Shown here piece by piece: positions 2,845 through 37,979 of a stretch of 37,979 bases of DNA. Origin of the DNA: an uncultured Alphaproteobacteria bacterium (GTDB lineage Bacteria; Pseudomonadota; Alphaproteobacteria; Rhodobacterales; Rhodobacteraceae); assembly GCA_902524845.1 (NCBI GenBank), contig CABZEW010000018.1:1-37979 (forward strand), read 5' to 3'. The translations under genes and the position numbers were made by a program. Each line of letters starts with the position of its first letter. Position 1 is the first letter of the stretch. Below the pieces are notes generated by a model. The model had not been told where the DNA came from. It made no database searches and worked only from the letters and a program-made list of their open reading frames with translations.

Positions 2845-4533
2845 ATGTTTGGCAGAAGAGAATTTCTACAGTATTTATCGGTAATGGGCGGTCTTTTTTC
2901 TACCAGTAGCTTCCCAACAATCGCTTCTCCAAAAAACATAACGGCATCGGATCTTCTGAAATTTGACTCAAAGGGGCAAGTCACCTTATTGCACATAACG
3001 GACATACACGCGCAATTGAAGCCAGTATATTTTCGTCCACCATCAGAAAACTATGGAGTAGGAGACTTTGAAGGCATTCCGCCTCATTTGGTTGGAAAAG
3101 ATTTTTTGGAACATTTTTCAATAGAGAAAAACTCGCCTTTGGCTTACGCACATACCATGGTTGATTATGTAAGCCTTGCTAAAGAGTATGGGAAATTGGG
3201 TGGGTTGGATCGAACTGCCTATCTCATTAAAGCTATTCGTGAAGAAAGGGGAAATGATAAGGTCTTATTATTAGATGGTGGAGATACATGGCAAGGGTCA
3301 TACACTTCTCTAAAAACACAAGGTATGGATATGGTTTCTACCATGAACCTTCTTTCACCGGATGCTATGGTAGGGCACTGGGAGTTTACACTTGGTAAGG
3401 AGAGATTAAAAAAACTTACAGAACTACTCAGGTGCCCATTTATAGGTGGAAACGTTTTTGATACCGAATGGGAAGAACAAGTTTTTGATAGCACATTATT
3501 CTTCGAAAAAGGGGGGATCAAGGTAGCAGTTATTGGTCAGCATTTTCCCTATACACCCATCGCAAATCCTAGCTATATGGTTGAGGGGTGGTCATTCGGA
3601 ATACGTAGTGAGTTGCTACAGGAGAATGTAAATAAAGCGAAGGAAAAGGGTGCAGAGGTTATAGTTTTGCTTTCTCACAATGGGTTTGATGTGGATCAAA
3701 AACTTGCTAGAATTATTACTGGTATAGATGTCATTTTGACAGGGCATACTCATGACGCCGTACCTCATGCAATAAGATTAAACAATACTCTCTTGCTATC
3801 GTCCGGGTCTCATGGAAAGTACTTGGGAAGAATAGATTTGCAGGTGCGTAATGGGAAAGTTGTTGACAGTACATCATCTCTAATTCCAATTTTTTCTGAT
3901 ATTCTAAAGTCAGACAATGAAATGATGAAGAAAATAAAAGAGGTAAGAGCTCCCTTCGAAATGGAATGTCAGAACGTCATTGGCCGTACCGGGTCGCTAT
4001 TATACAGAAGGGGTAGTTTTAATGGGACTTGGGATGATGTAATTTGTGACTCAATAATTCAACAGAGAGATAGTGAAATTTCTTTAAGCCCAGGCTTTCG
4101 CTGGGGGACGACCCTTTTGCCTGATCAAAATATCACCACTGAAGATGTTTACAGTCAAACTGCCATAAACTATCCCGAGGTCTACCGAATGAAAATGACT
4201 GGAAAGGCAATCAAAGAATTACTCGAAGATATTTGCGATAATATTTTTAATCCTGACCCATTTTTCCAGCAAGGAGGTGATATGGTTAGAGTAGGTGGCA
4301 TGACGTATGATTGCCACCCAAAAGAAAAGATGGGGCATCGCATAAAAAATTTAAAATTAGTGCGTAATGGTAAAGATATTCAGAAAACGAAAGAGTACGT
4401 AGTGTCTGGTTGGGGATCAGTAAACGAAAACGTAGAAGGTCCTGCTATATACGATATATTGAAAAACTATATTATTGATAAGAGAGAGATAAAGCCAAAA
4501 ACCCCTTCGCCTGTCAGGGTTATTGGAGTTTAA
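2845..4533 (+). CDS. soxB: SoxB, thiosulfohydrolase
   Basis: SoxB hydrolyses the cysteine-bound sulfonate on SoxY and releases sulfate; it is a di-manganese enzyme of the 5'-nucleotidase superfamily. The 562-residue product has a Tat signal (GRREFLQYL), metallophosphatase motifs HITDIHAQ, GGDTWQGS, VGHWEFTLG and GHTHDAVP in the correct order, and the C-terminal 5'-nucleotidase-like domain from about residue 365. The GGDTWQGS and GHWEFT motifs separate SoxB from true nucleotidases. It is the last gene of the rightward sox run and ends three bases before the base of a strong hairpin. Confidence 0.96.
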   Translation: MFGRREFLQYLSVMGGLFSTSSFPTIASPKNITASDLLKFDSKGQVTLLHITDIHAQLKPVYFRPPSENYGVGDFEGIPPHLVGKDFLEHFSIEKNSPLAYAHTMVDYVSLAKEYGKLGGLDRTAYLIKAIREERGNDKVLLLDGGDTWQGSYTSLKTQGMDMVSTMNLLSPDAMVGHWEFTLGKERLKKLTELLRCPFIGGNVFDTEWEEQVFDSTLFFEKGGIKVAVIGQHFPYTPIANPSYMVEGWSFGIRSELLQENVNKAKEKGAEVIVLLSHNGFDVDQKLARIITGIDVILTGHTHDAVPHAIRLNNTLLLSSGSHGKYLGRIDLQVRNGKVVDSTSSLIPIFSDILKSDNEMMKKIKEVRAPFEMECQNVIGRTGSLLYRRGSFNGTWDDVICDSIIQQRDSEISLSPGFRWGTTLLPDQNITTEDVYSQTAINYPEVYRMKMTGKAIKELLEDICDNIFNPDPFFQQGGDMVRVGGMTYDCHPKEKMGHRIKNLKLVRNGKDIQKTKEYVVSGWGSVNENVEGPAIYDILKNYIIDKREIKPKTPSPVRVIGV

Positions 4534-4535
4534 AT

Positions 4536-4563
4536 AGGAAGGCAGTCATGCAACTGCCTTCCT
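4536..4563. terminator. Shared hairpin between soxB and soxF
   Basis: A perfect 11-bp stem (AGGAAGGCAGT at 4536-4546 pairing with 4553-4563) encloses a six-base loop. It lies 3 bases after the soxB stop and 9 bases after the soxF stop on the other strand. The symmetrical stem between convergent genes indicates a bidirectional terminator, although the U-tract is weak in both directions: the plus strand is followed by seven A and the minus strand by an AT-rich but broken run. Confidence 0.7.
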
Positions 4564-4571
4564 AAAAAAAC

Positions 4572-5840
4572 CTATGAGAACATATCCGTAGTTATACCGT
4601 TGTACCAACCTATAGACTCTTCGTAGGTCTTCTTACGCTTGGCGTTGTTCTCATCTGTTTTAGATACAAACTTTTCCACTGCTTCGATCTTTTCTTCTCC
4701 AGCCTTATAATTTGCACCAACCTTTATACCGTCATTGGTAGCCACTAAAGACCAACATGTGTTTGAGAATTTCGCGGCAAATACCTTGCTACCGGTGAGT
4801 TCTCCTCTGATATGATTTGCTGCAACCTTTGCTTGGCTGTTTGCAGAAAAACCAGATTTAGGCATTGACGAAGCAACTGATGCATCCCCTAGAACGTAAA
4901 TATTACTATCTGCCCTAGTTTGCATAGATGCTGGAATTATTGGGCTCCAATCTCCATCTGTTACACCAGCATTCATGGCTATGGCACCCGCTTTCTGTGC
5001 TGGAACCACACAGGCTACGTCCGCCTTAAATGTATCGATATCAGTCTCAATTTCCATCGTTTCAGGATTTACGTTTTTAATTCCCCCATGAGTATCGTTA
5101 TCAATCCATTCGACCATGCCAGGGTAATGTTTTTCCCAGCCAGCCATAAATAGTCCTTGTTTAGAAAACTTATTTTTTGGATCTACAACAACAATTTTGG
5201 CAGTCGGATTTCTTTCTTTAAGTATGTGCGCAACCATCGAAATGCGCTCATAAGGTCCGGGAGGGCATCTGTAGGGGTTTGGCGGAGGAACCATCGCAAA
5301 GGTACCACCCTTTGGCATATTTAAGACTTGATCTCTCAAAACCTTAACTTGTGTTCCCGACTTCCAAGCATGAGGCATTTTTGTTTGGGCCTCAACCGAG
5401 TACCCATTAATGCTGTCATATTTAATGTCTATCCCAGGTGATAAAACCAACCTATCATAACTTACAGTCGCTCCAGAGCCTAATCTCACTTTGCGAGCAG
5501 ACGAATCGACAGATATTGCCCAATCATGTACCACGTTAACTCCATGATTAGCGCTTAAGTTATCGTATGAGTGTCCAATTGAGTCATATTCACGAAACCC
5601 ACCTAGATAAAGGTTTGAATAAAAACATGTGTAATATTGTTTTGATGCTTCAATTAAAGTCACATCAATTGCGCCTTTGGAATCTTTTGCGATATATCTT
5701 GCTGCCGTAGCACCACCTGCACCACCGCCGACAACTACAACTTTAGGTCGCGCTGAACCCGTAGAAATAGCTGGCATCGCTAGTAAGGATGTTGAAGCAA
5801 GAGCAAAAGATACAAAGGAACGTCTAGATAAATTATTCAT
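4572..5840 (-). CDS. soxF: Flavoprotein subunit of sulfide dehydrogenase (SoxF/FccB)
   Basis: This FAD enzyme oxidises sulfide in the periplasm and passes electrons to a small cytochrome c. The 422-residue protein has a Tat signal (LSRRSFVSFALAS), the FAD-binding VVVVGGGAGGATAARY motif at about residues 34-49, and the two redox cysteines expected for flavocytochrome c, at C72 (YYTCFYSN) and C362 (SNTCWSL). A strong GGGAGG Shine-Dalgarno site precedes the ATG. The cytochrome gene upstream on the same strand is the likely partner. Whether it acts mainly as sulfide dehydrogenase or as the SoxF accessory flavoprotein cannot be decided from sequence. Confidence 0.92.
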   Translation of the reverse strand: MNNLSRRSFVSFALASTSLLAMPAISTGSARPKVVVVGGGAGGATAARYIAKDSKGAIDVTLIEASKQYYTCFYSNLYLGGFREYDSIGHSYDNLSANHGVNVVHDWAISVDSSARKVRLGSGATVSYDRLVLSPGIDIKYDSINGYSVEAQTKMPHAWKSGTQVKVLRDQVLNMPKGGTFAMVPPPNPYRCPPGPYERISMVAHILKERNPTAKIVVVDPKNKFSKQGLFMAGWEKHYPGMVEWIDNDTHGGIKNVNPETMEIETDIDTFKADVACVVPAQKAGAIAMNAGVTDGDWSPIIPASMQTRADSNIYVLGDASVASSMPKSGFSANSQAKVAANHIRGELTGSKVFAAKFSNTCWSLVATNDGIKVGANYKAGEEKIEAVEKFVSKTDENNAKRKKTYEESIGWYNGITTDMFS

Positions 5841-5947
5841 AGTGTCCTCCCTATTTTTTCTTTTAGTGTAACAGGATTATTTTTTTTTTGAAAAAAAATT
5901 TAAAAAAATAGGAATTTGGTTTTTATCTATGTTCGAAAAGGTTTAAG
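5841..5947. other. A/T-run spacer between the cytochrome gene and soxF
   Basis: This 107-base gap in an otherwise tightly packed cluster contains long homopolymeric runs of T then A (about 5879-5913), typical of intrinsically curved DNA or of a soxF-specific promoter/upstream element. No clear -35/-10 pair was found. Confidence 0.35.
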
Positions 5948-6268
5948 CTATTTTTCTAAGCTGTTAAAATAAATGGCTAATGATGCTATTTCCTCCTTGT
6001 CTAGAGCACTAGCAACCAGTTGCATTACTTCGTTCTCTAACTCCTTATTTTTATATAAGACTAAGCGCTTTGCGATGTAGAGGGCTTCAGCGCCATTAAT
6101 GGCAGGTATACCTTTATCAGAAGAACTTTGATGACATGTTACACACTGCCCAGATAAATATTCACCGTAATCGAAGTCAGCTCCATCTAGCAAAGGCTCT
6201 GCTAATAGTACCCTAAATATTAGCAAATAAGAAACAACTGCAAAAAATTTAAATACAATCTTCACCAT
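5948..6268 (-). CDS. Small monohaem cytochrome c (SoxE/FccA-like)
   Basis: Likely the electron-accepting cytochrome for the adjacent SoxF/FccB flavoprotein. The 106-residue product has a hydrophobic N-terminal signal sequence or anchor (about residues 3-22) and one haem-binding site CVTCH at residues 42-46. A methionine in the EVMQLV segment, within the C-terminal helical half, is the probable axial ligand. It lies upstream of soxF on the same strand, the usual order of cytochrome and flavoprotein subunits. FccA may carry one or two haems; this one has a single site. Assignment to SoxE or FccA is by context. Confidence 0.82.
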   Translation of the reverse strand: MVKIVFKFFAVVSYLLIFRVLLAEPLLDGADFDYGEYLSGQCVTCHQSSSDKGIPAINGAEALYIAKRLVLYKNKELENEVMQLVASALDKEEIASLAIYFNSLEK

Positions 6269-6410
6269 GTTATAAGTTTACTTTGCGAAAAGCGTTATTG
6301 TAAATCAATTTTATATCACACAACTAAATCTCGTTTAACTCAAACTCATAGATCTCAATATTCTATCGTAACAGATTTATTACCATTTACTGCAGTTGAA
6401 AATGGAGAAG

Positions 6411-6439
6411 TTGACCTTTTTAAGTATAGTTTATAAACT
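6411..6439 (+). promoter_or_regulatory. Possible thiolase promoter with overlapping palindrome
   Basis: A TTGACC hexamer (6411-6416) lies 15 bases before TATAAA (6432-6437). The -10 region is embedded in a perfect 12-base palindrome, AGTTTATAAACT (6428-6439), which could be an operator or simply a symmetrical AT-rich -10. The spacing is shorter than the ideal 17, so this is only a candidate. Confidence 0.3.
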
Positions 6440-6469
6440 GGAAGTCATTATAAAAAAACGGAGCTTCGA

Positions 6470-7669
6470 ATGACAAAGAAATCATCTGGAAATAAAGTAG
6501 TGGTAGCTGGAGTTGGAATGATACCTTTTGCCAAGCCGGGAGCTTCGGAGACCTATGATATTATGGGTGCAAAAGCAGCGAGGTTGGCACTGGAAGATAG
6601 CGGAGTGGACTATAGCAATATTCAAAGTGCGTTTGTAGGATATGTATTTGGAGACTCCACATCAGGTCAGCGTGCTTTGTATCATGTTGGAATGACCGGT
6701 ATTCCAATTATAAATGTAAATAATAATTGTTCAACAGGTTCAACAGCACTTTATTTAGCAAGGCAAGCTATAGAAAGTGGCGCTAGTGATTGCGTGCTAG
6801 CTTTGGGCTTTGAACAAATGAGGCCAGGCGCTCTCGGTGATATTTACACAGATAGACCTAGTCCTTTTGGTGAATTTAATGAAACGTGTGAACAGTTAGT
6901 AGGCAATGCAGAGATTCCATTAGCGTTACGTTATTTTGGAGGTGCTGGAAAATCGCATATGGATAAGTATGGAACCACTATGAAAGACTTTGCAAAGATT
7001 AGGGCTAAGGCAAGCAGACACGCTGCCAAAAACCCTTTAGCTCTTTTCAAAAAGGAGGTTAGTGAAGATGAAGTGTTGGGGTCACCAATAATGTGGCCGG
7101 GTGTGATGACAAGGTTAATGGCGTGTCCTCCAACATGTGGTGGGGCTGCAACTATCTTGGTGTCTGAAAATTTTGCTAATAAACATAATATTGACTCGTC
7201 CGTTAGGATATTAGCACAGTCCATGACAACTGATTACGAGTCCACATTTGCAGATAGAGACATGATGCAATTGGTAGGATATGACATGTCAAAGGAAGCA
7301 GCTAAAAATGTATACAACCAAGCTGGTCTTGACGTTCAGGATATAGACGTCGTGGAACTCCATGATTGTTTTGCGCATAATGAACTTATTACTTATGAAG
7401 CGCTAGGTTTATGTAAAGAGGGAGAAGCACAGAAGTTCGTTAGCGATGGAGACAATACTTTTGGAGGAAAGTTTGTCACAAATCCATCAGGTGGACTGCT
7501 ATCGAAGGGACACCCGCTCGGAGCAACTGGATTGGCCCAGTGTTTTGAACTTACTCAGCAACTCCGCGGTAATGCCGGAGAAAAGCAGGTTGATGGTGCT
7601 ACGACAGCTTTGCAACATAATCTTGGTTTGGGTGGGGCATGCGTCACCACGCTTTATCAAAGTGCGTAA
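6470..7669 (+). CDS. SCP2-type thiolase / lipid-transfer thiolase family protein
   Basis: A thiolase-superfamily enzyme of the sterol-carrier-protein-X type, predicted to act on acyl-CoA thioesters (beta-ketothiolysis or a related condensation). The 399-residue protein shows the nucleophilic cysteine at C87 in NVNNNCSTG, the HDCFAHNE motif in the second half, and the C-terminal GHPLGATG motif. Start is ATG with GGAG upstream. No partner genes of beta-oxidation lie nearby, so the substrate is unknown. It converges on htpG with a gap of only five bases. Confidence 0.85.
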   Translation: MTKKSSGNKVVVAGVGMIPFAKPGASETYDIMGAKAARLALEDSGVDYSNIQSAFVGYVFGDSTSGQRALYHVGMTGIPIINVNNNCSTGSTALYLARQAIESGASDCVLALGFEQMRPGALGDIYTDRPSPFGEFNETCEQLVGNAEIPLALRYFGGAGKSHMDKYGTTMKDFAKIRAKASRHAAKNPLALFKKEVSEDEVLGSPIMWPGVMTRLMACPPTCGGAATILVSENFANKHNIDSSVRILAQSMTTDYESTFADRDMMQLVGYDMSKEAAKNVYNQAGLDVQDIDVVELHDCFAHNELITYEALGLCKEGEAQKFVSDGDNTFGGKFVTNPSGGLLSKGHPLGATGLAQCFELTQQLRGNAGEKQVDGATTALQHNLGLGGACVTTLYQSA

Positions 7670-7674
7670 ACAGA

Positions 7675-9531
7675 TCAACCCAAAGCAAGACCCAAGAACT
7701 TTGACATTCTTTGGTTAAATTTTGCTACGTCCTGAGGGAGCTCTCCTTCGACCATTTTTGCTTGATCAAATAGCAGAAAGGAAGCGTCTTTCAATGCATC
7801 TTTGTCTGAGTCCTTTATCTTATTCAGTTTTTTTATTATATTATGATCAGGGTTTACCTCTAATATTCTGGGCATCCCCTTAAAGTCCTTGTTTTGAATT
7901 TTCATTATTCTTTCCATTTGAACATCCATCCCAGTATCTGGCGCAACTAGACAGCAAGCACTATCAACCAATTTTGTGGAAACTTTAACATCCTGTACGT
8001 GATCGCCGAGTATTTCTTTAATTTTTTCAACAAGACCCTTTATGCCTGCCGGCGTTTTTTTATTTTTCTCTTTTTTGTCGTCCGCAAAAGCTGTGAGGTC
8101 TATATCCCCTTTTGTGATCGAGACAAACTTTCTATCTTGAAAATCACTAGCCATAGACAACCAAAATGTATCAATGGGGTCTGTTAAAAATAAAACATCA
8201 AGCTTCTTTTGTTTGAATACCTCAAGATGAGGACTCCCTTCTGCCATTTCCTTACTCTCGGCCGCCAAGTAGTATATATCCTTCTGTTCAGCATTCATTT
8301 TTTCGATGTAATCCGTCAAAAACACCGGCTTGTCTTCATTCATAGACTGAAATTTTGATAGTTCGAGAAGCTCCGTCTTTAGATCAAAATCTTCATAAAC
8401 TCCTTCCTTTAGAACAATCCCAAATTCATTCCAAAAAGAAGAATATCTTTCTGGGTCTTTATCTTTAAGCTTCTTCAGTTCGTTGATTACTCTTTTCTTT
8501 AAAGCCTTAGAAATTTTATTCAATGTAACATTATGTTGTAGCATTTCTCTGCTAACATTAAGATCGACGTCCGATGTGTCCACTATACCTTTCACAAACC
8601 TTAGCCATCTCGGCAAAACACTTTCTGAGTCTTCAGTTATTAAGACCCTGTTTGAATAAAGCTTGATTTTAGATTTTACGTCCATTTGGAATAAATCAAA
8701 TGGCCTTGACCCAGGGATAAAGAGAAGATTTGTATAGCTAAGTGTCCCTTCTACCTTATTATGCAAGGTGAGCAAAGGTTTGTCATAACCAGCACCTATC
8801 TGTTTGTAAAACTCTTCATACTGCTCAACAGAAATGTCTTTCTTTTCTCTTGTCCATATTGCTGAGGCTTTATTAAGCAATTCAGGCTCATTTTTACCAT
8901 CAATAAAGTTTACAGAATACATTAAATGATCGGAATACTTTCGCGTGATAAAGCCTATTCTCTCTTTATCAAGGTATTCTTTTTCGCTTCTCTTCATGTG
9001 GAGGGTTATTTCTGTACCCACCTCTTCTTTTGTAGCATCAGATATTTCGTAGCCAGAAACACCGTCTGACTCCCATTTGTTTGCCTTGGTTTGCCCAGTT
9101 CCTTTACTTACCACCTCAACCTTATCTGCGACCATGAAAGCAGAATAAAAGCCCACACCAAACTGACCTATGAGGTTAACGTCTTTCTTTTTTTTATCTT
9201 TGCCGGCATTTTTTTCAAGCTCCGCTAAGAACTCCGTAGTGCCTGATTTTGCGATAGTTCCCAAAGAGTTCTCTAACTCCTCTCTAGTCATGCCGACGCC
9301 ATTGTCTGTAATTGTAAGGGTACTGTCCTTCTTATTTGCATGAATTTGAATTTTAAGATCCTCAGTCCCAACGCTTTCATTTTTATCGGTTAAAGAGAGA
9401 AAACGCCTTTTATCAAGTGCATCACTACTGTTTGAAATTAATTCTCTTAGAAAAATTTCTTTTTCCGAGTAAAGAGAGTTAATCACTATATTAAGAACAC
9501 GACCGGTGTCTGCTTCAAAAGCCTTTTTCAT
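7675..9531 (-). CDS. htpG: HtpG, bacterial Hsp90 chaperone
   Basis: HtpG is the cytosolic Hsp90, an ATP-dependent dimeric chaperone. The 618-residue protein begins with the GHKL ATPase domain: the FLRELISNSSDALDK motif (about residues 27-41), ITDNGVGMT and GQFGVGFYSAF. The middle domain contains the conserved SRGIVD-like patch here written as KGIVDTSDVDLNVSREMLQ, and the dimerisation domain ends at FLGLALG. An AAGGAAA ribosome site precedes the ATG. It is transcribed alone, divergent from the aroF operon. Confidence 0.97.
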   Translation of the reverse strand: MKKAFEADTGRVLNIVINSLYSEKEIFLRELISNSSDALDKRRFLSLTDKNESVGTEDLKIQIHANKKDSTLTITDNGVGMTREELENSLGTIAKSGTTEFLAELEKNAGKDKKKKDVNLIGQFGVGFYSAFMVADKVEVVSKGTGQTKANKWESDGVSGYEISDATKEEVGTEITLHMKRSEKEYLDKERIGFITRKYSDHLMYSVNFIDGKNEPELLNKASAIWTREKKDISVEQYEEFYKQIGAGYDKPLLTLHNKVEGTLSYTNLLFIPGSRPFDLFQMDVKSKIKLYSNRVLITEDSESVLPRWLRFVKGIVDTSDVDLNVSREMLQHNVTLNKISKALKKRVINELKKLKDKDPERYSSFWNEFGIVLKEGVYEDFDLKTELLELSKFQSMNEDKPVFLTDYIEKMNAEQKDIYYLAAESKEMAEGSPHLEVFKQKKLDVLFLTDPIDTFWLSMASDFQDRKFVSITKGDIDLTAFADDKKEKNKKTPAGIKGLVEKIKEILGDHVQDVKVSTKLVDSACCLVAPDTGMDVQMERIMKIQNKDFKGMPRILEVNPDHNIIKKLNKIKDSDKDALKDASFLLFDQAKMVEGELPQDVAKFNQRMSKFLGLALG

Positions 9532-9706
9532 TGGGAAAGTTTCCTTCGTTATTCATTTTGTCGCTATTATGTATGTATTGAATATTCAGTAGTCAATAAG
9601 GCGGGGCATTTTTTTTCACTTTTTTTATTATTCTTCAGGTTGTTTTTTAGACCTAATAAGTGTAATACCTAGCAGGGCATTGATTTAAGGTTACTGAGGA
9701 ATGTAA

Positions 9707-11044
9707 ATGAGCTGGGATAAAACAAATTGGCGAGAAAAACCTCGGGTTCAAATGCCCGTTTATCGTAATGCTAAAGAGTTAGAGTCTGTTGGGAGTAGTT
9801 TAGAGGCGTTACCACCGTTAGTTTTCGCAGGAGAAGTGAGAAGTTTAAAAGAGCACCTCTCCGCTGTAGGTAACGGTGATGCTCTTTTGCTTCAGGGGGG
9901 AGATTGTGCTGAAAGCTTCTCAGAATTTTCTGCAAATTTAATCAGAGATACTTTTAAAGTAATGCTTCAAATGGCAGTTGTCTTGACGTTCGGTTCAAAA
10001 AAACCAGTCATAAAAGTAGGCCGCATGGCGGGGCAGTTTGCAAAGCCTCGATCTGCGGACTTTGAAGTAATAAATGATCAGAAATTACCATCCTATAGAG
10101 GAGATATCATCAATGATATTACTCCCAACTTAAAAAGTAGAGAGCCTGATCCAAAGAGAATGCTTCAAGCATATACACAATCAGCGGCTTCCGTAAATCT
10201 TCTGCGGGCATTTTCTCAAGGAGGGTTTGCTGACATTCGCCAAGTACATGCTTGGACTTTGGAAAGTACTAGGGCAGGGAGTACATACAAGCAATTTTCA
10301 GAACTTGCAGAAAAAATCTCGGAAGCCCTTGAATTCATGGAGGCTGCGGGTGTTTCACCGAATAACACTTTGTCCCTTAGGAGAGTTGACTTTTACACAA
10401 GTCATGAGGCACTCCTTTTGGAATACGAAGAAGCACTTTGTCGAATTGACAGCCTGACGGGTAATCCAGTTGCGGGGTCTGGTCATATGCTTTGGATTGG
10501 AGACCGAACCAGGGATCCTGATGGAGCGCATGTTGATTTTTGCAGTGGTGTTGAAAACCCTATAGGGCTTAAGTGTGGACCAAGCTTATCAGCAAATGAC
10601 CTATTAAAATTAGTACAGAAACTAAATCCCGACAATGAAATGGGACGGCTTACTCTGATAACTAGATACGGTCATGATAAAGTTTCAGAATATCTACCCA
10701 AGCTTATAACGAGCGTTAAGTCCGAGGGTTTTAATGTCGTGTGGTGTTGTGATCCCATGCATGGTAATACAATCAAATCAAATAGTGGGTTCAAAACTAG
10801 GCCATTTGAGCACGTATTATCGGAAGTTCAAAATTCTTTTGCGGTGCATCGATCCGAAGGAACATATCCAGGAGGTGTTCATTTTGAAATGACTGGGAAA
10901 GATGTGACCGAGTGCACCGGAGGGGCTCAATCAATTGCTGATGAGGATCTCTCTTCAAGATATCATACCGCCTGTGATCCGAGACTGAATGCCTCTCAAT
11001 CTCTTGAGCTTGCATTCTTAGTTGCGGAACTATTGAAAAAATAA
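9707..11044 (+). CDS. aroF: Class II 3-deoxy-7-phosphoheptulonate (DAHP) synthase
   Basis: This enzyme condenses phosphoenolpyruvate and erythrose 4-phosphate in the first step of the shikimate pathway. The 445-residue product belongs to the plant-like class II family, shown by LLLQGGDCAESF (about residues 59-70), the GRMAGQFAKPRS motif, the metal and phosphate-binding segment around DFYTSHEAL, and the WCCDPMHGNT motif near residue 350. Class II enzymes differ completely in sequence from the E. coli AroG/F/H type. A GAGGAA site lies upstream of the ATG. It heads a rightward run with serB, gmk, a carbonic anhydrase and plsC. Confidence 0.95.
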   Translation: MSWDKTNWREKPRVQMPVYRNAKELESVGSSLEALPPLVFAGEVRSLKEHLSAVGNGDALLLQGGDCAESFSEFSANLIRDTFKVMLQMAVVLTFGSKKPVIKVGRMAGQFAKPRSADFEVINDQKLPSYRGDIINDITPNLKSREPDPKRMLQAYTQSAASVNLLRAFSQGGFADIRQVHAWTLESTRAGSTYKQFSELAEKISEALEFMEAAGVSPNNTLSLRRVDFYTSHEALLLEYEEALCRIDSLTGNPVAGSGHMLWIGDRTRDPDGAHVDFCSGVENPIGLKCGPSLSANDLLKLVQKLNPDNEMGRLTLITRYGHDKVSEYLPKLITSVKSEGFNVVWCCDPMHGNTIKSNSGFKTRPFEHVLSEVQNSFAVHRSEGTYPGGVHFEMTGKDVTECTGGAQSIADEDLSSRYHTACDPRLNASQSLELAFLVAELLKK

Positions 11045-11069: not shown

Positions 11070-11933
11070 GTGATGTTAAATTTTTGTGTCGCAACTTCCT
11101 GTGAGGCTTTAGTAAAGTCCGATATCTCTTTCCTAAAGGATTATCTAAGAGCGGAAAGGGTCGATGTTATGGGCACCTTTGGAGCACAATTTGAGGTAAA
11201 GAGAAAACTAATCCCATCTGCTAAACAGCTAAATAATGGAAAAAAAATCGATTTAAATTTCATATCTGAGGATGATAGGCGCGTACATTTGTTAATATCT
11301 GACATGGATGGCACCATATTAGAAGAGGAGTGTATCGATGAGATTGCTGAGCTCGTAGGTAAAGGGCCCGAGGTAAAAAAAATTACGAGTTTAGCTATGA
11401 AAGAGGGTTTAAATTTTGACGAAGCGTTAGAAAGAAGATTAGCTTTGATTAAAGGGACTCGAATAGAGGTTTTAGAGAAATGTATGGCTAAAAGAATAAA
11501 TATTAGGCACGGAGCTAAGGTTCTTTTTAAAACGTTCAAAAAAAATTTTGGAGAAACTGCTATTCTTTCAGGAGGATTCACCTTTTTTTCCGATCGCATA
11601 CAAAGGGAATTGAAGGCTGATTTTTCATTTGCTCATGTTTTAGAATTCAAAAGTAATCGCTTAACCGGGAAAATATTAGGATCCAAAATAAATTCCGAGA
11701 TGAAAACTGAATTAATGAAACAATTAAGTGCTAGGCAAGGAAAAAAAACCACTAATGTTGTTGCTGTAGGTGATGGCAACAATGATATAGGGATGATTTC
11801 TGAGTCTGGCATGGGTATCTCGTTCAAGGGAGGTCACCAAGTTAATCTTGCAGCAAAACATGTGTTAAAGAATTCAAATATATCGGCTATCCTTCACTTG
11901 TTAGGACTAAGAGAAGATCAGTTTGTGTATTAA
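11070..11933 (+). CDS. serB: Phosphoserine phosphatase SerB
   Basis: Removes phosphate from O-phosphoserine in the last step of serine synthesis. The 287-residue HAD-family protein has the nucleophile motif DMDGT (D78, D80), the motif II region LSGGFTFF, and the metal-binding GDGNNDIGMI near the C terminus, in the order typical of SerB. The preceding ~75 residues form the less conserved N-terminal regulatory domain. GTG at 11070 and ATG at 11073 are both possible starts. It follows aroF by 25 bases. Confidence 0.92.
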   Translation: MMLNFCVATSCEALVKSDISFLKDYLRAERVDVMGTFGAQFEVKRKLIPSAKQLNNGKKIDLNFISEDDRRVHLLISDMDGTILEEECIDEIAELVGKGPEVKKITSLAMKEGLNFDEALERRLALIKGTRIEVLEKCMAKRINIRHGAKVLFKTFKKNFGETAILSGGFTFFSDRIQRELKADFSFAHVLEFKSNRLTGKILGSKINSEMKTELMKQLSARQGKKTTNVVAVGDGNNDIGMISESGMGISFKGGHQVNLAAKHVLKNSNISAILHLLGLREDQFVY

Positions 11934-11942
11934 AGTAAATTT

Positions 11943-12599
11943 ATGGAGAAAGTGGCCGTGTCAAAGAAAGGCGTCTTAGTTATTTTATCTTCTCCATCAG
12001 GTGCTGGTAAAACAAGTATTGCTCGTGCCCTGGTAGAAGGGAATGAAAACTTCTTGTTTTCTGTTTCTGCTACAACAAGAAAATCACGACCTGGTGAAGT
12101 AAATGGGAGAGAATATTATTTTCTAACGGTCGATCAATTTAGACAAAACATTGATGATGGCCAATTTTTAGAGCATGCAAAAGTTTTTGGAAATTTATAT
12201 GGAACTCCTCTCAAAGCCGTTAAAGATTCGATAATTCAAGGTAAAAACTTGATTTTCGATGTTGACTGGCAAGGTGGCAAACAGATCCGAAGTTCTTCTT
12301 TTAGCAAATTTGTCATTTCTATATTTTTTCTACCTCCATCAATTAAAGAATTGCATGAAAGGTTAATGGACCGAGCCCAAGATTCATCGGAAACAGTTAA
12401 AGATAGAATGAGAAAATCCATTGATGAAATTATGCATTGGAAAGAATATGATTATGTTATTGTGAATAGAGATTTCGATAAAACGCTTAAAGAAGTTAAG
12501 TCCATTATAATATCTGAGAAATTGAGGCGCGTTAGAAATAACGAATTGGAGAAATTTGTGGAAACGCTAACAAATGAATTTAAGGATCTAAAGTCATGA
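11943..12599 (+). CDS. gmk: Guanylate kinase
   Basis: Phosphorylates GMP to GDP. The 218-residue protein has the P-loop SSPSGAGKT (about residues 16-24), the GMP-binding SATTRKSRPGEVNGREYYF segment, and the lid region around the DRMRKS arginines. The start ATG lies nine bases after serB; a second possible start is a GTG four codons later. Its last four bases overlap the ATG of the carbonic-anhydrase-like gene (ATGA), indicating translational coupling. Confidence 0.95.
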   Translation: MEKVAVSKKGVLVILSSPSGAGKTSIARALVEGNENFLFSVSATTRKSRPGEVNGREYYFLTVDQFRQNIDDGQFLEHAKVFGNLYGTPLKAVKDSIIQGKNLIFDVDWQGGKQIRSSSFSKFVISIFFLPPSIKELHERLMDRAQDSSETVKDRMRKSIDEIMHWKEYDYVIVNRDFDKTLKEVKSIIISEKLRRVRNNELEKFVETLTNEFKDLKS

Positions 12600-13132
12600 C
12601 AACGATATATGAAATCGGCGCAATGAGGCCGACCTTACCAAATAACGGTGATTTTTGGATTGCTCCAAATTCATTTGTAATTGGCAACGTGATTATGAAA
12701 GGAGCGACATCTGTTTGGTTTGGAACAACTATAAGGGGCGATAACGAAATAGTAACTATAAACGATGGTACCAACATACAAGAAAATACAATACTTCATA
12801 CCGATTTAGGTTTCCCAATTGAAATAGGAAAAAACTGTACAATTGGGCATAAGGCTATGCTTCATGGTTGTGTGATCGAAGATAACTCATTGATTGGAAT
12901 GGGATCTACGATATTAAATGGTGCTCGAATATCAAAAAATTGCTTAGTGGGTGCCTGCTCCCTAGTAACTGAGGGTAAAACGTTTCCTGAAAATTCACTA
13001 ATTATGGGATCTCCGGCAAAAGTTGTTAGACAATTGACAGAAAGAGAGATTGAAGGCATCACTAAGTCTGCATTTTGGTATCAGGAAAACATGAGACGTT
13101 TCAAATCAGACATGAAAGTAGTAGAAATATAA
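12596..13132 (+). CDS. Gamma-class carbonic anhydrase / hexapeptide-repeat protein
   Basis: A left-handed beta-helix protein of 178 residues built from hexapeptide repeats (VIGNVI, IRGD, IQENTI, IEIGKN, SLIGMG). Three histidines in the expected positions, HTD and GHKAMLHG, match the zinc ligands of gamma-class carbonic anhydrases (YrdA/CaiE/PaaY group). Many members of this group have no proven carbonic anhydrase activity, so the reaction is tentative. It overlaps gmk by four bases and is followed by plsC after 16 bases. Confidence 0.88.
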   Translation: MTTIYEIGAMRPTLPNNGDFWIAPNSFVIGNVIMKGATSVWFGTTIRGDNEIVTINDGTNIQENTILHTDLGFPIEIGKNCTIGHKAMLHGCVIEDNSLIGMGSTILNGARISKNCLVGACSLVTEGKTFPENSLIMGSPAKVVRQLTEREIEGITKSAFWYQENMRRFKSDMKVVEI

Positions 13133-13148
13133 ACAATTGGAAGTTTAA

Positions 13149-13925
13149 ATGATTTCAATCGCGATCCTGAGAGCTTCAATTGTTGTCGTTATGACAATAA
13201 TTCTTATGCCTATTCACTTAATGGGATTGTTTTTAGATTATTTTTTTGAAGTAAGAATAGTGGTTCTGCTCACGAAGAAACTTTGGTCTAGAGCCGTAAT
13301 GAAAACGATTGGTGTCGACCGGCAATTAATAGGAATTGGTAGAAGCTCTAATATTTTTGTTTCTAACCATATTTCTTGGCTCGATATATTAGCTATAAAT
13401 AGTACTATAGATGTTGTTTTTATAGCAAAAAGTGAGGTTAGATCTTGGCCAGGATTAGGATTTCTGGCAGTACTAGGGCAAACAATATTTATAGAAAGAA
13501 AGTCTTTTCATGCGCTTTCTCAAAAGCAAGCATTGGAAGAGTGTTTAAAAAAAAACCAAAGTGTATTTTTCTTCCCAGAAGGAACCAGCACCGACGGTTC
13601 CAGTCTAAAACAATTCAAATCCTCGCTTTTTGAGGTTTGCTACAGTGACTTTTTTAAAAAAAACAATTTGGGAACAGTGCAACCTATAACAATTAACTAC
13701 GAATCACCGATAGAAAGTGATCCAGGTTTTTACAGCTTCTGGAGAGAGGAAGATACGATATTTGGAAACATAAAAAAGATTATAAAGAAAGTAAGCCATG
13801 GCCGCGTTCGATTGACATTCCATAGACCAATTGAATTTAGTAAATACAGCAATAGGAAGCATTTAAGCTTTGCCTGTTACAAAACAGTTAGGAGTGGGTT
13901 AGGAAACTCAGCACGCTCCTGTTAA
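13149..13925 (+). CDS. plsC: 1-acyl-glycerol-3-phosphate acyltransferase (PlsC family)
   Basis: Membrane-associated acyltransferase that adds the second fatty acid in phosphatidic acid synthesis. The 258-residue product has an N-terminal membrane segment (about residues 4-30), the catalytic HX4D motif in [10 protein letters not shown] (about residues 73-82), the substrate-binding [10 protein letters not shown] motif, and a C-terminal segment typical of PlsC. A close relative acting on lyso-ornithine lipids (OlsA) cannot be excluded. Its last 18 bases overlap the end of eno on the opposite strand. Confidence 0.88.
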
Positions 13926-15194
13926 GATATCATTGCCAATATATTTAGCATTTTGCCCAATTTCTTCTTCTATTCTTAACAGCTGGTTATACTTCGCTAA
14001 TCTGTCACTTCTTGATAAAGAACCAGTCTTTATTTGAGTGCACCCGGTGGCTACGGCTAAATCGGCTATGAAAGTATCTTCCGTTTCACCGGATCTGTGA
14101 GACATAATACAGGAATAATCATTTTTCTTTGCTAGCGCGATAGTTTCTAAAGTTTCACTGAGTGTGCCTATTTGGTTTGGCTTTATTAGTATTGCATTGC
14201 CAGCACTCCTTTCCACCCCCTCTTTTAACCTGACTTTGTTAGTAACAAATAAATCATCTCCAACTAATTGAACTTTTGAGCTAAGGTTTTTTGTAAGCAG
14301 CCTCCAGCCATCCCAGTCATCTTCGGCCATTCCGTCCTCAATAGAAAAGATAGGATACTTCTTGCATAGACTTCCTAAATACCCAGCATTCTCTTTAGCT
14401 GTTAAATATTTACCTTCCCCTACCAAATTATACTTATTGCCATCGTAATATTCAGTTGACGCGCAGTCGAGTGCAAGATAGAAGTCTTTCTCTAATTTAT
14501 ATCCACAAGAATTGATAGCCTTAATGACTGCATCTAATGCAGCCTCCGCACTTTCTAAAGTGGGTGCAAATCCGCCTTCGTCTCCAATATTTGTACTCAA
14601 TCCCTCTGCCTTAAAATTCTTTTTCAGAGTTTGAAAAACTTCGCAGGACATTTGTAAGGCTTCTCTAAACGTTTTTGCTCCGATTGGCATAATCATGAAC
14701 TCTTGAAAATCGATAGAGTTATCGGCGTGACTTCCCCCATTTATTATATTCATTAATGGCACGGGCAGCCTGTACTCCTTGCCAGTGGCCAGGTAACTGA
14801 ATAGGGACTGTTTTTTTAAATGTGAAGCCGCTCTAGCCACTGCAAGAGAAACACCTAAAATAGCGTTTCCTCCCAAATTTGATTTATTTGGCGTGCCATC
14901 TAGTTGTATAAGTGTGTAGTCAATTTGTTTTTGATCTGTAGCATCTTTACCCTTCAACTGTGGATTTATTTTCTCATTAACGTTACCAACCGCTTTTCTA
15001 ACTCCATTCCCCAAAAATCTTAATAAATCATTATCCCTCAGCTCTATCGCTTCGTGCCTACCAGTGGATGCCCCAGAGGGAACTGAAGCTCTCCCATAAG
15101 AACCATTGAGAAGATATACATCAACTTCAATGGTTGGATTTCCTCTGCTATCAATTATCTCACGTGCACGTATCCTATTAATTGTCCCTATCAT
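13908..15194 (-). CDS. eno: Enolase
   Basis: Interconverts 2-phosphoglycerate and phosphoenolpyruvate in glycolysis. Hallmarks are [15 protein letters not shown] at the N terminus, [15 protein letters not shown], the metal-binding [14 protein letters not shown] and GDDLFVTN segments, and [18 protein letters not shown] near the C terminus. The reading frame is open to a start at 15206, but the ATG at 15194 (MIGTINRI) matches the usual enolase N terminus better and reduces the overlap with fur. It is the last gene of the fabI-gpt-mazG-fur-eno run. Confidence 0.96.
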
Positions 15195-36088: not shown

Positions 36089-36175
36089 GCGGCTGTGGCG
36101 GAATCGGTAGACGCGCAGCGTTGAGGTCGCTGTGGGGTAAAACCCGTGGAAGTTCAAGTCTTCTCAGCCGCACCA
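36089..36175 (+). tRNA. tRNA-Leu (anticodon GAG)
   Basis: An 87-base class II tRNA with acceptor stem GCGGCTG paired to CAGCCGC (36165-36171), discriminator A, encoded CCA at 36173-36175, and the long variable arm of leucine tRNAs (about TGTGGGGTAAAACCCGTG). The anticodon in GTTGAGGTC is GAG, reading CTY. A GATAAT at 36073-36078 is a plausible -10. The last 14 bases of the gene are the start of a 94-bp inverted repeat and would be the integration target of the neighbouring integrase. Confidence 0.96.
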
Positions 36176-36255
36176 TAATCTAGATCTCATTTGACCTAAA
36201 GCACTGATTTATATGTATTTTATTATGGTTATGCAATTAGGTGTGAAACAAAATG
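36162..36255 (+). repeat. 94-bp inverted repeat, left copy
   Basis: Perfectly matches the reverse complement of 37783-37876 by direct base-by-base comparison. It starts 14 bases inside the tRNA-Leu 3' end and finishes exactly with the ATG of the integrase gene. Within it are TTGACC (36191-36196), an AGGTG ribosome site (36239-36243), and an internal inverted pair, ACCATAAT (36172-36179) and ATTATGGT (36222-36229). The match stops sharply on both sides. Confidence 0.97.
36191..36243 (+). promoter_or_regulatory. Expression leader carried inside the inverted repeat
   Basis: TTGACC (36191-36196) is followed by weak -10 candidates (TGTATT at 17 bases, TATTTT at 19), then AGGTG (36239-36243) nine bases before the integrase ATG. 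The same elements occur in mirror image at 37795-37847 before the MAPEG gene. The ribosome site is the most convincing part; the promoter is a candidate. If real, each repeat copy supplies its gene with a complete start signal. Confidence 0.4.
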
Positions 36256-37422
36256 AGAAACAATTATGGTGTGAATCACATGATGAATCGTGATGGTGTG
36301 TTCTATTACATCAGACGAGTGCCATGCGATCTTAGTGATTTTTATGCAATCAAAAGACTTTGCTTTAGCTTAAAAACCAAATCCATCAATACTGCTAGAC
36401 GACTCTCAAGATCAATTGAGCAGAAACTAGAAGATTATTGGTTGGGGTTGAGACTTCAGAACTTAGACATTCCTCAAATAAAAGTATCGTCACAGCCAAG
36501 TAGGTCACCGGATCAGGAAGGTGTGTGCTTATCTGAAGCTCTTGATCTTTATCTTAAATTGAAAGGGCAGGGGAAAGATCATGTATTCTTTAGGACAGCA
36601 AAAAGAAATATCAGATATGTAACCAACTTGTTAGGAGATAAACCTTTGTCTGCTTATTCCTCTAAAGAAGCAGGACAGTTTCGTGACTGGTTGTTTGATC
36701 AAGGCATGGGAGTGAATACTGTTAAGCGAGTATTTTCAACGGTCAGATCAATAATTAATATTTGTATAACTGAAATGGGGTTGGAGTGTTCCAATGCTTT
36801 TTCTAAAACCTTCATGCCTACTGTAGTCAATAGTGAGGGTAGACAACCTATTCCCCAAAAGAATATAGAAAGAATAAAAGAAGAATGTCATAGGTTAGAT
36901 GATGAGATGCGTTGGTTAGTAGCTTTACTTTGTGACAGTGGTTTGAGATTAGGTGAAGCAACTGGTCTTGCTAAAGAAGATATAGTTCTTAATCATTCTA
37001 TTCCTCATGTCAGGATTAAACCTCATCCTTGGAGAAGTTTAAAAACATTAGGTAGCGAAAGAGAAGTTCCATTGATTGGTATTTCTTTATGGGCAGCAAA
37101 GAGAATAAAAAATAATGGAAGTCCGTTTAAGTTTGCCTTTCCAAGATATACTAATGATCATTTTTCAAATGCCAACTCAGCATCAGCAGCTTTAAATAAG
37201 TGGCTCAAACCTTTTGTTCCAGAAAGCTGTGTCATTCATTCGTTTAGGCATAGCTTTAGAGATAGACTGCGTAATGTTGAATGTCCTTTTGACGTTATTG
37301 ATAGGCTAGGGGGTTGGATTACATCTGGAGTAGGGCAGACGTATGGCAAAGGTTATGATTTAAATGTACTTGGTAAGTGGATGCTAAAAGTAGACAGCAA
37401 TGTATTGAACAAAATTTACTAG
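36253..37422 (+). CDS. Tyrosine recombinase / phage-type integrase
   Basis: Site-specific recombinase, predicted to act on the tRNA-Leu 3' end. The 389-residue protein has an N-terminal DNA-binding region with the YYIRRVP motif (about residues 18-24, DUF6538-like), a SAM-like core-binding domain around residues 92-175, and the catalytic domain: R232 in GLRLGEATGL, K264 in SLKT, H329 and R332 in HSFRHSFR, W355 where many relatives have His or Trp, and nucleophile Y364 in TYGKGY. All catalytic positions are present, so it should be active. ATG lies at the end of the repeat; internal ATGs at codons 10-11 are alternative starts. Its last 39 bases overlap the MAPEG gene. Confidence 0.92.
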   Translation: MRNNYGVNHMMNRDGVFYYIRRVPCDLSDFYAIKRLCFSLKTKSINTARRLSRSIEQKLEDYWLGLRLQNLDIPQIKVSSQPSRSPDQEGVCLSEALDLYLKLKGQGKDHVFFRTAKRNIRYVTNLLGDKPLSAYSSKEAGQFRDWLFDQGMGVNTVKRVFSTVRSIINICITEMGLECSNAFSKTFMPTVVNSEGRQPIPQKNIERIKEECHRLDDEMRWLVALLCDSGLRLGEATGLAKEDIVLNHSIPHVRIKPHPWRSLKTLGSEREVPLIGISLWAAKRIKNNGSPFKFAFPRYTNDHFSNANSASAALNKWLKPFVPESCVIHSFRHSFRDRLRNVECPFDVIDRLGGWITSGVGQTYGKGYDLNVLGKWMLKVDSNVLNKIY

Positions 37423-37785
37423 ACCAACTAAACCAAGAGCTAGGAGTGTTAAAAACATTCCTCCTCCTCGGAGAAAAATGCTTTTCCTCAACATGAAAGA
37501 AAATAGTATGCCGTGCATTAATCGTCCAATCATAAACATAATAGCTAGGCTATGAAGTATGTGATTATGCGTTCCTGCTTCTTCAGCAAGATAAAGTAAG
37601 ATAAAAAATAGAGGAGCATACTCAATAAAGTTTCCATGACCCCTAACAGTTCTACGAATGACTTCTTCATTTTCTCTACCATAACTAATAAATTTAAATA
37701 GAGGGTTACCTCTAATTCCAAATATTCTAACTGTTAGTAATAAGAAGAAGCCTGTAGCTAGAGAAGCATAAAGTTGAGTTACCAT
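37384..37785 (-). CDS. MAPEG-family membrane protein
   Basis: A 133-residue integral membrane protein of the MAPEG superfamily (membrane-associated proteins in eicosanoid and glutathione metabolism). It has four predicted membrane helices (about residues 3-22, 56-72, 78-99 and 108-128) and the family signature RGHGNFIEYAPLF with E55 and P58. Bacterial members are often microsomal glutathione-transferase-like, but substrates are mostly unknown. Its ATG (37785-37783) is the last codon of the right repeat, and its 3' end overlaps the integrase gene. As cargo of a recombinase unit it may be an acquired detoxification gene, which is inference. Confidence 0.88.
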   Translation of the reverse strand: MVTQLYASLATGFFLLLTVRIFGIRGNPLFKFISYGRENEEVIRRTVRGHGNFIEYAPLFFILLYLAEEAGTHNHILHSLAIMFMIGRLMHGILFSFMLRKSIFLRGGGMFLTLLALGLVGLVNFVQYIAVYF

Positions 37786-37876
37786 TTTGTTTCACACCTA
37801 ATTGCATAACCATAATAAAATACATATAAATCAGTGCTTTAGGTCAAATGAGATCTAGATTATGGTGCGGCTGAGA
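37783..37876 (-). repeat. 94-bp inverted repeat, right copy
   Basis: Exact reverse complement of 36162-36255. It contains the tRNA-Leu 3' end fragment (37863-37876, minus strand) without the rest of a tRNA; the sequence beyond does not continue into a T-arm. Its inner end is the MAPEG start codon. The outer flank is unrelated to the tRNA-Leu upstream flank, showing that this is a true junction and not a fold-back copy. Confidence 0.97.
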
Positions 37877-37979
37877 TAAAGTTAACTGCCCTACAAATGC
37901 ACCACTAGCAACCGAAATACAGCAATAACAGTAGGTTAGGTATCTCCGAGTTCATGTCAATAGGCACGATTTGTTTCAC
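37877..37979. other. Window edge beyond the right repeat
   Basis: About 100 bases with no supportable gene. On the minus strand an open frame from the edge ends in a TAG about 30 bases before the repeat and could be the tail of another gene or a short peptide, unidentified. The final ten bases (37970-37979) match the inner part of the 94-bp repeat, reading in the same direction as the right copy. Confidence 0.35.

Follow-up and report, generated by a model that had tools for sequence, protein, structure and literature searches.

A tRNA-adjacent integrase enclosed by inverted attachment-site copies in Rhodobacteraceae: a possible integrative element with a second att site

The integrase unit at tRNA-Leu(GAG)

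The window, by which we mean the whole stretch of 37,979 nucleotides analysed, is the entire contig C18 of genome G000, an uncultured alphaproteobacterium of the Rhodobacteraceae whose assembly is 74.4% complete and composed of 89 contigs. Near its right end, a tRNA-Leu(GAG) gene called by ARAGORN (36089-36175, forward strand), the integration target, overlaps the left arm (L, 36162-36255, forward) of an inverted repeat, whose right arm (L', 37783-37876, reverse) is identical to it at 94 of 94 bases, within a wider gapless match of 108 nt at 94% identity. As a result of this overlap, 14 nt of the tRNA 3' end (core c1, 36162-36175, forward) lie inside the left arm, which they open, and their inverted copy (core', 37863-37876, reverse) lies at the outer end of L'.

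Two convergent genes are enclosed by the arms. The first encodes a tyrosine integrase of 389 aa (36253-37422, forward), with DUF6538 and Phage_integrase (PF00589) domains in Pfam and a frame free of internal stops; its catalytic residues R232, K264, H329, R332, W355 and Y364 are each shared by 76-78 of 78 homologues with an open frame. The second encodes a MAPEG-family protein of 133 aa (37384-37785, reverse; Pfam) and is the passenger gene of the integrase module. The first-pass annotation had described a perfect 94-bp inverted repeat, the final 14 bases of tRNA-Leu in its left copy, an apparently intact integrase and a MAPEG gene inside it, and all four points are confirmed by the base-by-base comparison, the tRNA call, the integrase frame and residues, and Pfam. 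The integrase adjoins the tRNA gene, as is expected of a tRNA-targeting element. The inner ends of the repeat fall exactly on the ATG of the integrase gene and on that of the MAPEG gene, so that both genes have an identical 5' leader, the left arm being at once the left end of the element and the leader of the integrase gene. Over the inner end of L lies a pair of short direct repeats (36242-36262, forward), TGTGAAACA (36242-36250) and TGAGAAACA (36254-36262), which could function as arm-type sites for the integrase. TGAGAAACA extends 7 nt past the inverted repeat into the integrase gene, and L' has only the first copy.

The contig stops 103 bp past the right arm, and these last bases (37877-37979, reverse) are assigned to the start of R', the inverted right end of the element, which runs past the contig end. 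Sequence like them recurs in the window's own genome and in its genus, mostly adjoining a tRNA-3' core, in islands of the plan tRNA|core-L ... R-core, some in tandem, at tRNA-Leu(GAG) and Leu(TAG); related islands of the genus lie at Leu(CAA) and Thr(TGT). As the R'-like sequence elsewhere is the right end of an element, the L'-core'-R' succession of the window can be read as an inverted attachment junction. At their tRNA-Leu(GAG) locus, both G005 and G009 have left ends that match the L arm at 97% identity, the G009 copy sitting in tandem, about 2 kb from the tRNA. Scanning genome contigs with a 21-base left-end pattern yielded six loci in five isolates of the window's genus, and a protein scan of genome contigs for relatives of the two proteins yielded none. 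Two protein clusters, c11 and c20, are common in the islands (10 and 6 loci, among them L057, L009 and further loci of the genus), and the one tested member of each matches an adenylate/guanylate cyclase domain.

The same integrase, MAPEG and inverted-arm unit lies at tRNA-Leu(TAG) in G008, where the cores of the two arms are both of the TAG type. Beyond it come R', a cargo of 6 kb, R and then a core (L046:13038), one base off the tRNA 3' end; the R'/R inverted pair measures 211 bp at 75% identity. In G005, the integrase is split, the MAPEG gene is present and the right arm has lost its core; the interruption of the integrase homologue is an insert of about 5 kb with five ORFs (L047, G005:C6, 360-5419), the first of which matches HAD and UbiA families. 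The integrase is broken in both G008 and G005, and the MAPEG gene, found in 3 of the 22 genus genomes and each time within such a unit, is intact in all three. The arms are 100% identical within the window, 93-94% within G008, and 84-87% between the two. In G020, an integrase 51% identical to that of the window lies at tRNA-Thr, enclosed by a perfect 81-bp inverted repeat, with an R'/R pair of 189 bp at 99.5%. Within the window's genus, only 2 of the 7 tallied integrases have arms. Elements of the genus that lack an integrase (L058, L059) have a plain L...R plan and no inverted site, so that the inverted site would not be required for mobility if those elements are mobile.

Enclosed integrases and complete elements in related genomes

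Our survey covers 94 deduplicated integrases from 53 genomes or records, sampled as best hits and not at random; integrases with fewer than about 250 aligned residues, including the broken G008 and G005 copies, were excluded. Hits were found in 10 of 22 genomes of the window's genus. A family search with the G020 integrase gave hits in 51 of 394 genomes, and 17 of the 20 loci taken from the best ones have arms. The class search gave hits in 10 of 385 genomes, and the 21 loci taken comprise 16 with arms of at least 60 bp, one more with an 18-bp inverted core, and four with neither. The family of G790 (hits in 32 of 61 genomes) contributed 30 loci and 20 fetched stretches, to which Ruegeria sp. 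TM1040 was added. A phylum sample of 398 genomes, 5 of them with hits including the window's own genome, stands outside the 94; arms are present there in L320 (a repeat of L159) and L321, and absent from L322 and L323.

Inverted repeats of at least 60 bp (range 60-390 bp) surround 63 of the 94 integrases, in 40 genomes; 30 of these repeats are perfect. Five others have arms of 20-57 bp, and 26 have no inverted arm, although 5 of these have less than 400 bp, and several others only about 1.5 kb, of sequence after the integrase gene. The enclosed integrases are mostly 40-60% alike and their hosts belong to seven family codes (f1, f19, f29, f80, f96, f109 and f148). A tRNA gene was found at the outer end for 46 of the 63, with 15 anticodon types; in 39 of these 46, the arm takes in 13-17 nt of the tRNA 3' end. 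None of 20 other phage-type integrases used as a control is enclosed by an inverted repeat, but only two of them (L251, L267) start beside a tRNA; a second control of 30 Xer-like integrases (none enclosed) is not relied on, as its minus-strand loci were mis-oriented. In a tree of 48 integrases, the trait needs at least seven changes, a count in which two rows, L161 (arm identity 97.4%) and L075, were read on the wrong strand. No confirmed viral relative of the integrase or of the MAPEG protein came from the phage, plasmid and viral collections, and the viral collections had no contig with the 21-base left-end pattern; the plasmid collection gave one match, in Ruegeria sp. TM1040, and the phage collection two distant integrases. 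Judged from sequence organisation, the arrangement of the window is no local accident, the same plan recurring in other alphaproteobacteria.

The longer loci reveal the full plan, tRNA|core-L-int(-passenger)-L'-core'-R'-cargo-R-core. In complete relatives, both L/L' and R'/R form inverted pairs, an inverted att junction is found at core', and the first and far cores are direct repeats; L' and R' overlap by the core, of 15-28 bp. The arms are nearly identical within an element and different between elements. Complete elements were found in single-contig genomes and large contigs, three in G106, two in G624, two in G790 and one in G260, with R arms of 197-3183 bp at 97.8-100% identity: 767 bp (98.3%), 686 bp (97.8%) and 379 bp (98.9%) in G106, 304 and 291 bp (99.7%) in G624, and 394 bp (99.0%) and 197 bp (100%) in G790. 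The pair of G260 (L215) is a perfect 3183-bp inverted repeat (2955-6137 and 11267-14449, integrase-oriented), far longer than the others seen. A third G624 locus, L204, has R'/R and an 18-bp inverted core, without L' beyond the core; downstream of this tRNA-Phe element lies a further perfect inverted repeat of 931 bp (6271-7201 and 9303-10233, integrase-oriented). The R'/R pair was not found in the fetched stretches of L165, L199, L202, L207 and L211.

A direct far core closes seven elements of G020, G106, G624 and G790 as well as that of TM1040, and these eight elements measure 4.3-13.4 kb. The latter, on the megaplasmid NC_008043.1 (about 586101-598870), lies at tRNA-Phe, with L/L' of 85 bp and R'/R of 1148 bp, both at 100%, and its cargo includes a type I restriction-modification system. 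This system is flanked by BRO-family genes with the same protein accession (L299, 13475-14050 and 23819-24394), located inside the R' and R arms. The first-pass annotation had named a direct-repeat att partner further right, explaining a normal integrative element, as evidence against its reading. Such a partner is present in the relatives G008 (one base off), G020, G106, G624, G790 and TM1040, and the window ends before the point where it would lie. The contigs of L161, L168, L172, L173 and L174 and the window all end 60-113 bp beyond the inverted arm, where an R'/R repeat would be expected to interrupt assembly; the double-site plan may thus explain assembly breaks at such islands. From the arrangement of its repeats, this plan is that of an integrative element with an extra, complete attachment site in inverted orientation.

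Orientation of the integrase module and competing explanations

The tRNA could be placed for 69 integrases, and it lies at the integrase start in 68 and at the stop in one. In the window, G008 and G005, the integrase has the same orientation (3 of 3), that of G005 being read from right-flank genes common with G008, as its tRNA is off the contig. Inverted att copies with a complete junction nevertheless make inversion possible, and two inversions were found, one of a cargo and one of an integrase module. In two G106 elements, L216 and L217, a cargo of 5,054 bp, 89% alike, is in opposite orientation relative to the integrase and bounded by the R arms, which are 98% alike within each element and 87-89% between them. 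This flipped cargo encodes a protein of about 1080 aa and one that, from its repeat, we take to be TPR-like. In the G106 loci L166/L216 and L167/L217, the gene next to that for the protein of about 1080 aa has a 102-bp tandem repeat in its coding sequence, with seven units in L166. In G815 (L300), the integrase module is flipped: tRNA-Arg faces the integrase stop and has the start of a 319-aa passenger gene next to it, and R'|core' adjoins the integrase start; the arms of L300 have only the 20-bp core in common. Inversion thus occurs in this family, but the orientation of the integrase is nearly fixed. The single cargo inversion could be explained by homologous recombination.

We tentatively favour the following explanation. 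This segment of the window would be the integrase module of an integrative element that targets tRNA genes and carries a second att site in inverted orientation; the circular form of the element would resemble the FLP/2-micron circle. The element would leave as a circle by recombination between the core and the far core. This circle would contain two inversely oriented att sites, with one arc for the integrase module and the other for the cargo module. Recombination between the inverted sites, whether catalysed by the integrase or proceeding homologously via the arms, would flip the cargo relative to the integrase and keep the arms alike. Integration would favour the site whose L arm continues into the integrase start, often with a second short repeat, L' being the weaker site; this preference would place the integrase beside the tRNA, pointing away from it. 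A passenger gene, MAPEG in the window, could borrow the duplicated leader L'. The 26 of 94 homologues, and 5 of 7 integrases in the window's genus, that have no inverted arm stand against this double-site model.

Short repeats are a potential basis for such a preference. Tandem 9-mers with at most one mismatch, searched for on both sides in the arm (up to 90 nt) and 60 nt beyond it, occur on 37 of 63 L sides, where 4.6 are expected from shuffles, versus 10 of 63 L' sides. The 37 L-side pairs straddle the arm end (22), lie wholly beyond it (9) or lie inside the arm (6); as their positions vary, straddling is not a uniform rule. A narrower count, allowing two mismatches in a region whose centring on the arm end favours straddling pairs, found a pair in 52 of 63 L arms (13.4 expected), the second copy lying beyond the arm in 48 of the 52 and being retained in L' in 4. 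By their position, these repeats are putative arm-type sites of the integrase. Should they be so, many elements would have one fully armed and one weaker att site between which the integrase could choose, and the L-biased tandem repeat would be a possible cause of the orientation lock.

Alternatively, the second site could be a by-product, namely an old inverted duplication of the attP region that has no role and is kept alike by gene conversion, an ordinary process between close inverted repeats. The same armless homologues, together with the integrase-less elements, which do without the inverted site, are in keeping with this explanation, which we consider rather unlikely: the arrangement is present in 40 genomes with integrases mostly 40-60% alike, and its arms run from the tRNA end to near the integrase start. 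Perfect arms are also commoner in elements with an open integrase frame (29 of 53) than in those with a stop or frame break (1 of 10; Fisher p 0.014), although the frame-break call is a crude test and, as the loci are related, this association is only a hint. G008, outside this count, fits it with its broken integrase and drifting arms.

Another explanation, to which we give a similarly low probability, is single-strand integration as in CTXphi. Because R-core-L can pair with L'-core'-R' within a single strand, a single-stranded circle would fold back on itself to form a double-stranded attP, leaving integrase and cargo as loops, and the exchange of one strand would yield one orientation. Such a folded attP, the main functional rival, would account for the orientation bias as well as the double-site model: exchange of a defined strand predicts a bias such as 68:1, and in relatives the two att junctions are complete inverted copies. 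CTXphi provides a precedent, two inversely oriented attP sequences pairing to form attP(+) (PMC4246890). Against it, we noticed neither a relaxase nor a Rep or phage gene in the Pfam results of 10 proteins, the G106 ORF list and the TM1040 annotation, which cover the cargo partly; R arms reach 3183 bp, far beyond what folding requires; and the integrase-less elements have no inverted site.

The first-pass annotation had proposed a two-state switch, in which the integrase flips its module in the chromosome and puts either itself or the passenger gene beside the tRNA. The part of this proposal that stands is inversion by inverted att copies, as the right arm belongs to a complete R'|core'|L' junction and module inversions exist in the family (L216/L217, L300). 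The switch itself is not borne out, and this expression switch at the tRNA is the least probable of the functional readings, indeed improbable. Of the features of a phase-variation switch, inverted sites with a recombinase between them are present, but both orientations are not: the search of relatives for the two states returned the window, G008 and G005 all alike, the integrase is broken in the last two, and the ratio of 68:1 in the family led us to reject a plain invertible switch as the main reading. The one flipped module, L300, is what a switch would produce, yet its arms share just the core. The inverted arm lies within 60 bp of the integrase stop in 28 of the 63 modules, and the remaining 35 have space for a passenger gene. 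The longest ORF points inward from L' in 14 of the latter and starts at most 90 bp from it, mirroring the integrase gene; MAPEG, missed by the ORF script because it overlaps the integrase gene, makes 15. In the other 20, the longest ORF points the opposite way (14) or there is no ORF of 60 aa (6). The duplicated leader thus sometimes serves as the front of a second gene; as the integrase and MAPEG genes have the same leader, flipping would not obviously alter expression. 

An artefact of assembly or of single-cell amplification, which can create inverted chimeras, is very improbable and was rejected for the family: five relatives in the genus look like single-cell genomes, but the same plan is present in the single-contig genomes G106, G624 and G790 and on the complete TM1040 megaplasmid, G008 has the same unit with diverged arms, and the arm ends match the tRNA end and the ATG.

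Relation to known systems and significance

In tRNA-targeting islands, such as P4-like islands and ICEs, a PF00589 integrase lies beside a tRNA gene whose 3' end is duplicated as a far direct core. The elements described here have the same tRNA-adjacent integrase and, in relatives, the far direct core; they differ by an extra complete inverted att site between integrase and cargo, which creates two modules bounded by inverted repeats. The yeast 2-micron plasmid with its FLP/FRT system has two arcs split by inverted repeats that hold the recombinase site, with the recombinase gene in one arc. The circle deduced here from complete integrated relatives would have the same two-arc topology, and the one cargo pair in opposite orientation (L216/L217) may correspond to two isomers of the 2-micron kind. 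The differences are integration at bacterial tRNAs and that no replication genes were noticed in the partly annotated cargo. Tycheposons of marine bacteria are likewise islands linked to tRNA genes and equipped with a tyrosine recombinase.

CTXphi is integrated by the host recombinases XerC/XerD at dif, through a folded attP made from two inverted attP sequences with a 90-bp spacer (PMC4246890). Our elements also have two att sites in inverted orientation (in relatives, and in the window with a partial R'), but they carry an integrase of their own between these sites and are directed to a tRNA gene. Strand-biased circularizing integrative elements (SEs) are small elements of marine bacteria with tyrosine recombinases, four conserved genes including two recombinases (intA and intB; CDS2 and CDS4), and imperfect inverted end repeats of 13-19 bp (PMC10214605). 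Ours resemble them in their small size, marine hosts and tyrosine recombinase; the arms here are of 94 bp (60-390 bp in the family) and not 13-19 bp imperfect end repeats, and the integrase module of the window has one integrase where SEs have two recombinases. A full-text literature search, the scope of which left out most subscription papers and all bioRxiv preprints, turned up no earlier account of an integrase lying between inverted att copies of a tRNA 3' end, and novelty is therefore unproven.

We propose, with the reserve that such a reading calls for, that the unit of the window is a mobile element with a built-in second site rather than a two-state expression switch. It can also be envisaged, if with some hesitation, that bacterial integrative elements of this kind form a new class, with two complete inverted att sites, FLP/2-micron-like isomerisation or folded single-strand integration, and an integrase orientation fixed by unequal arms. 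The second site may play a role in copy-number amplification or in cargo exchange. The arms are kept almost identical across 15 tRNA anticodon types and seven host family codes, and, if the double-site reading is true, these elements would be a bacterial counterpart of inverted-site recombination circles. They raise a testable question, namely why a second, inverted landing site is kept and what locks the orientation of the integrase.
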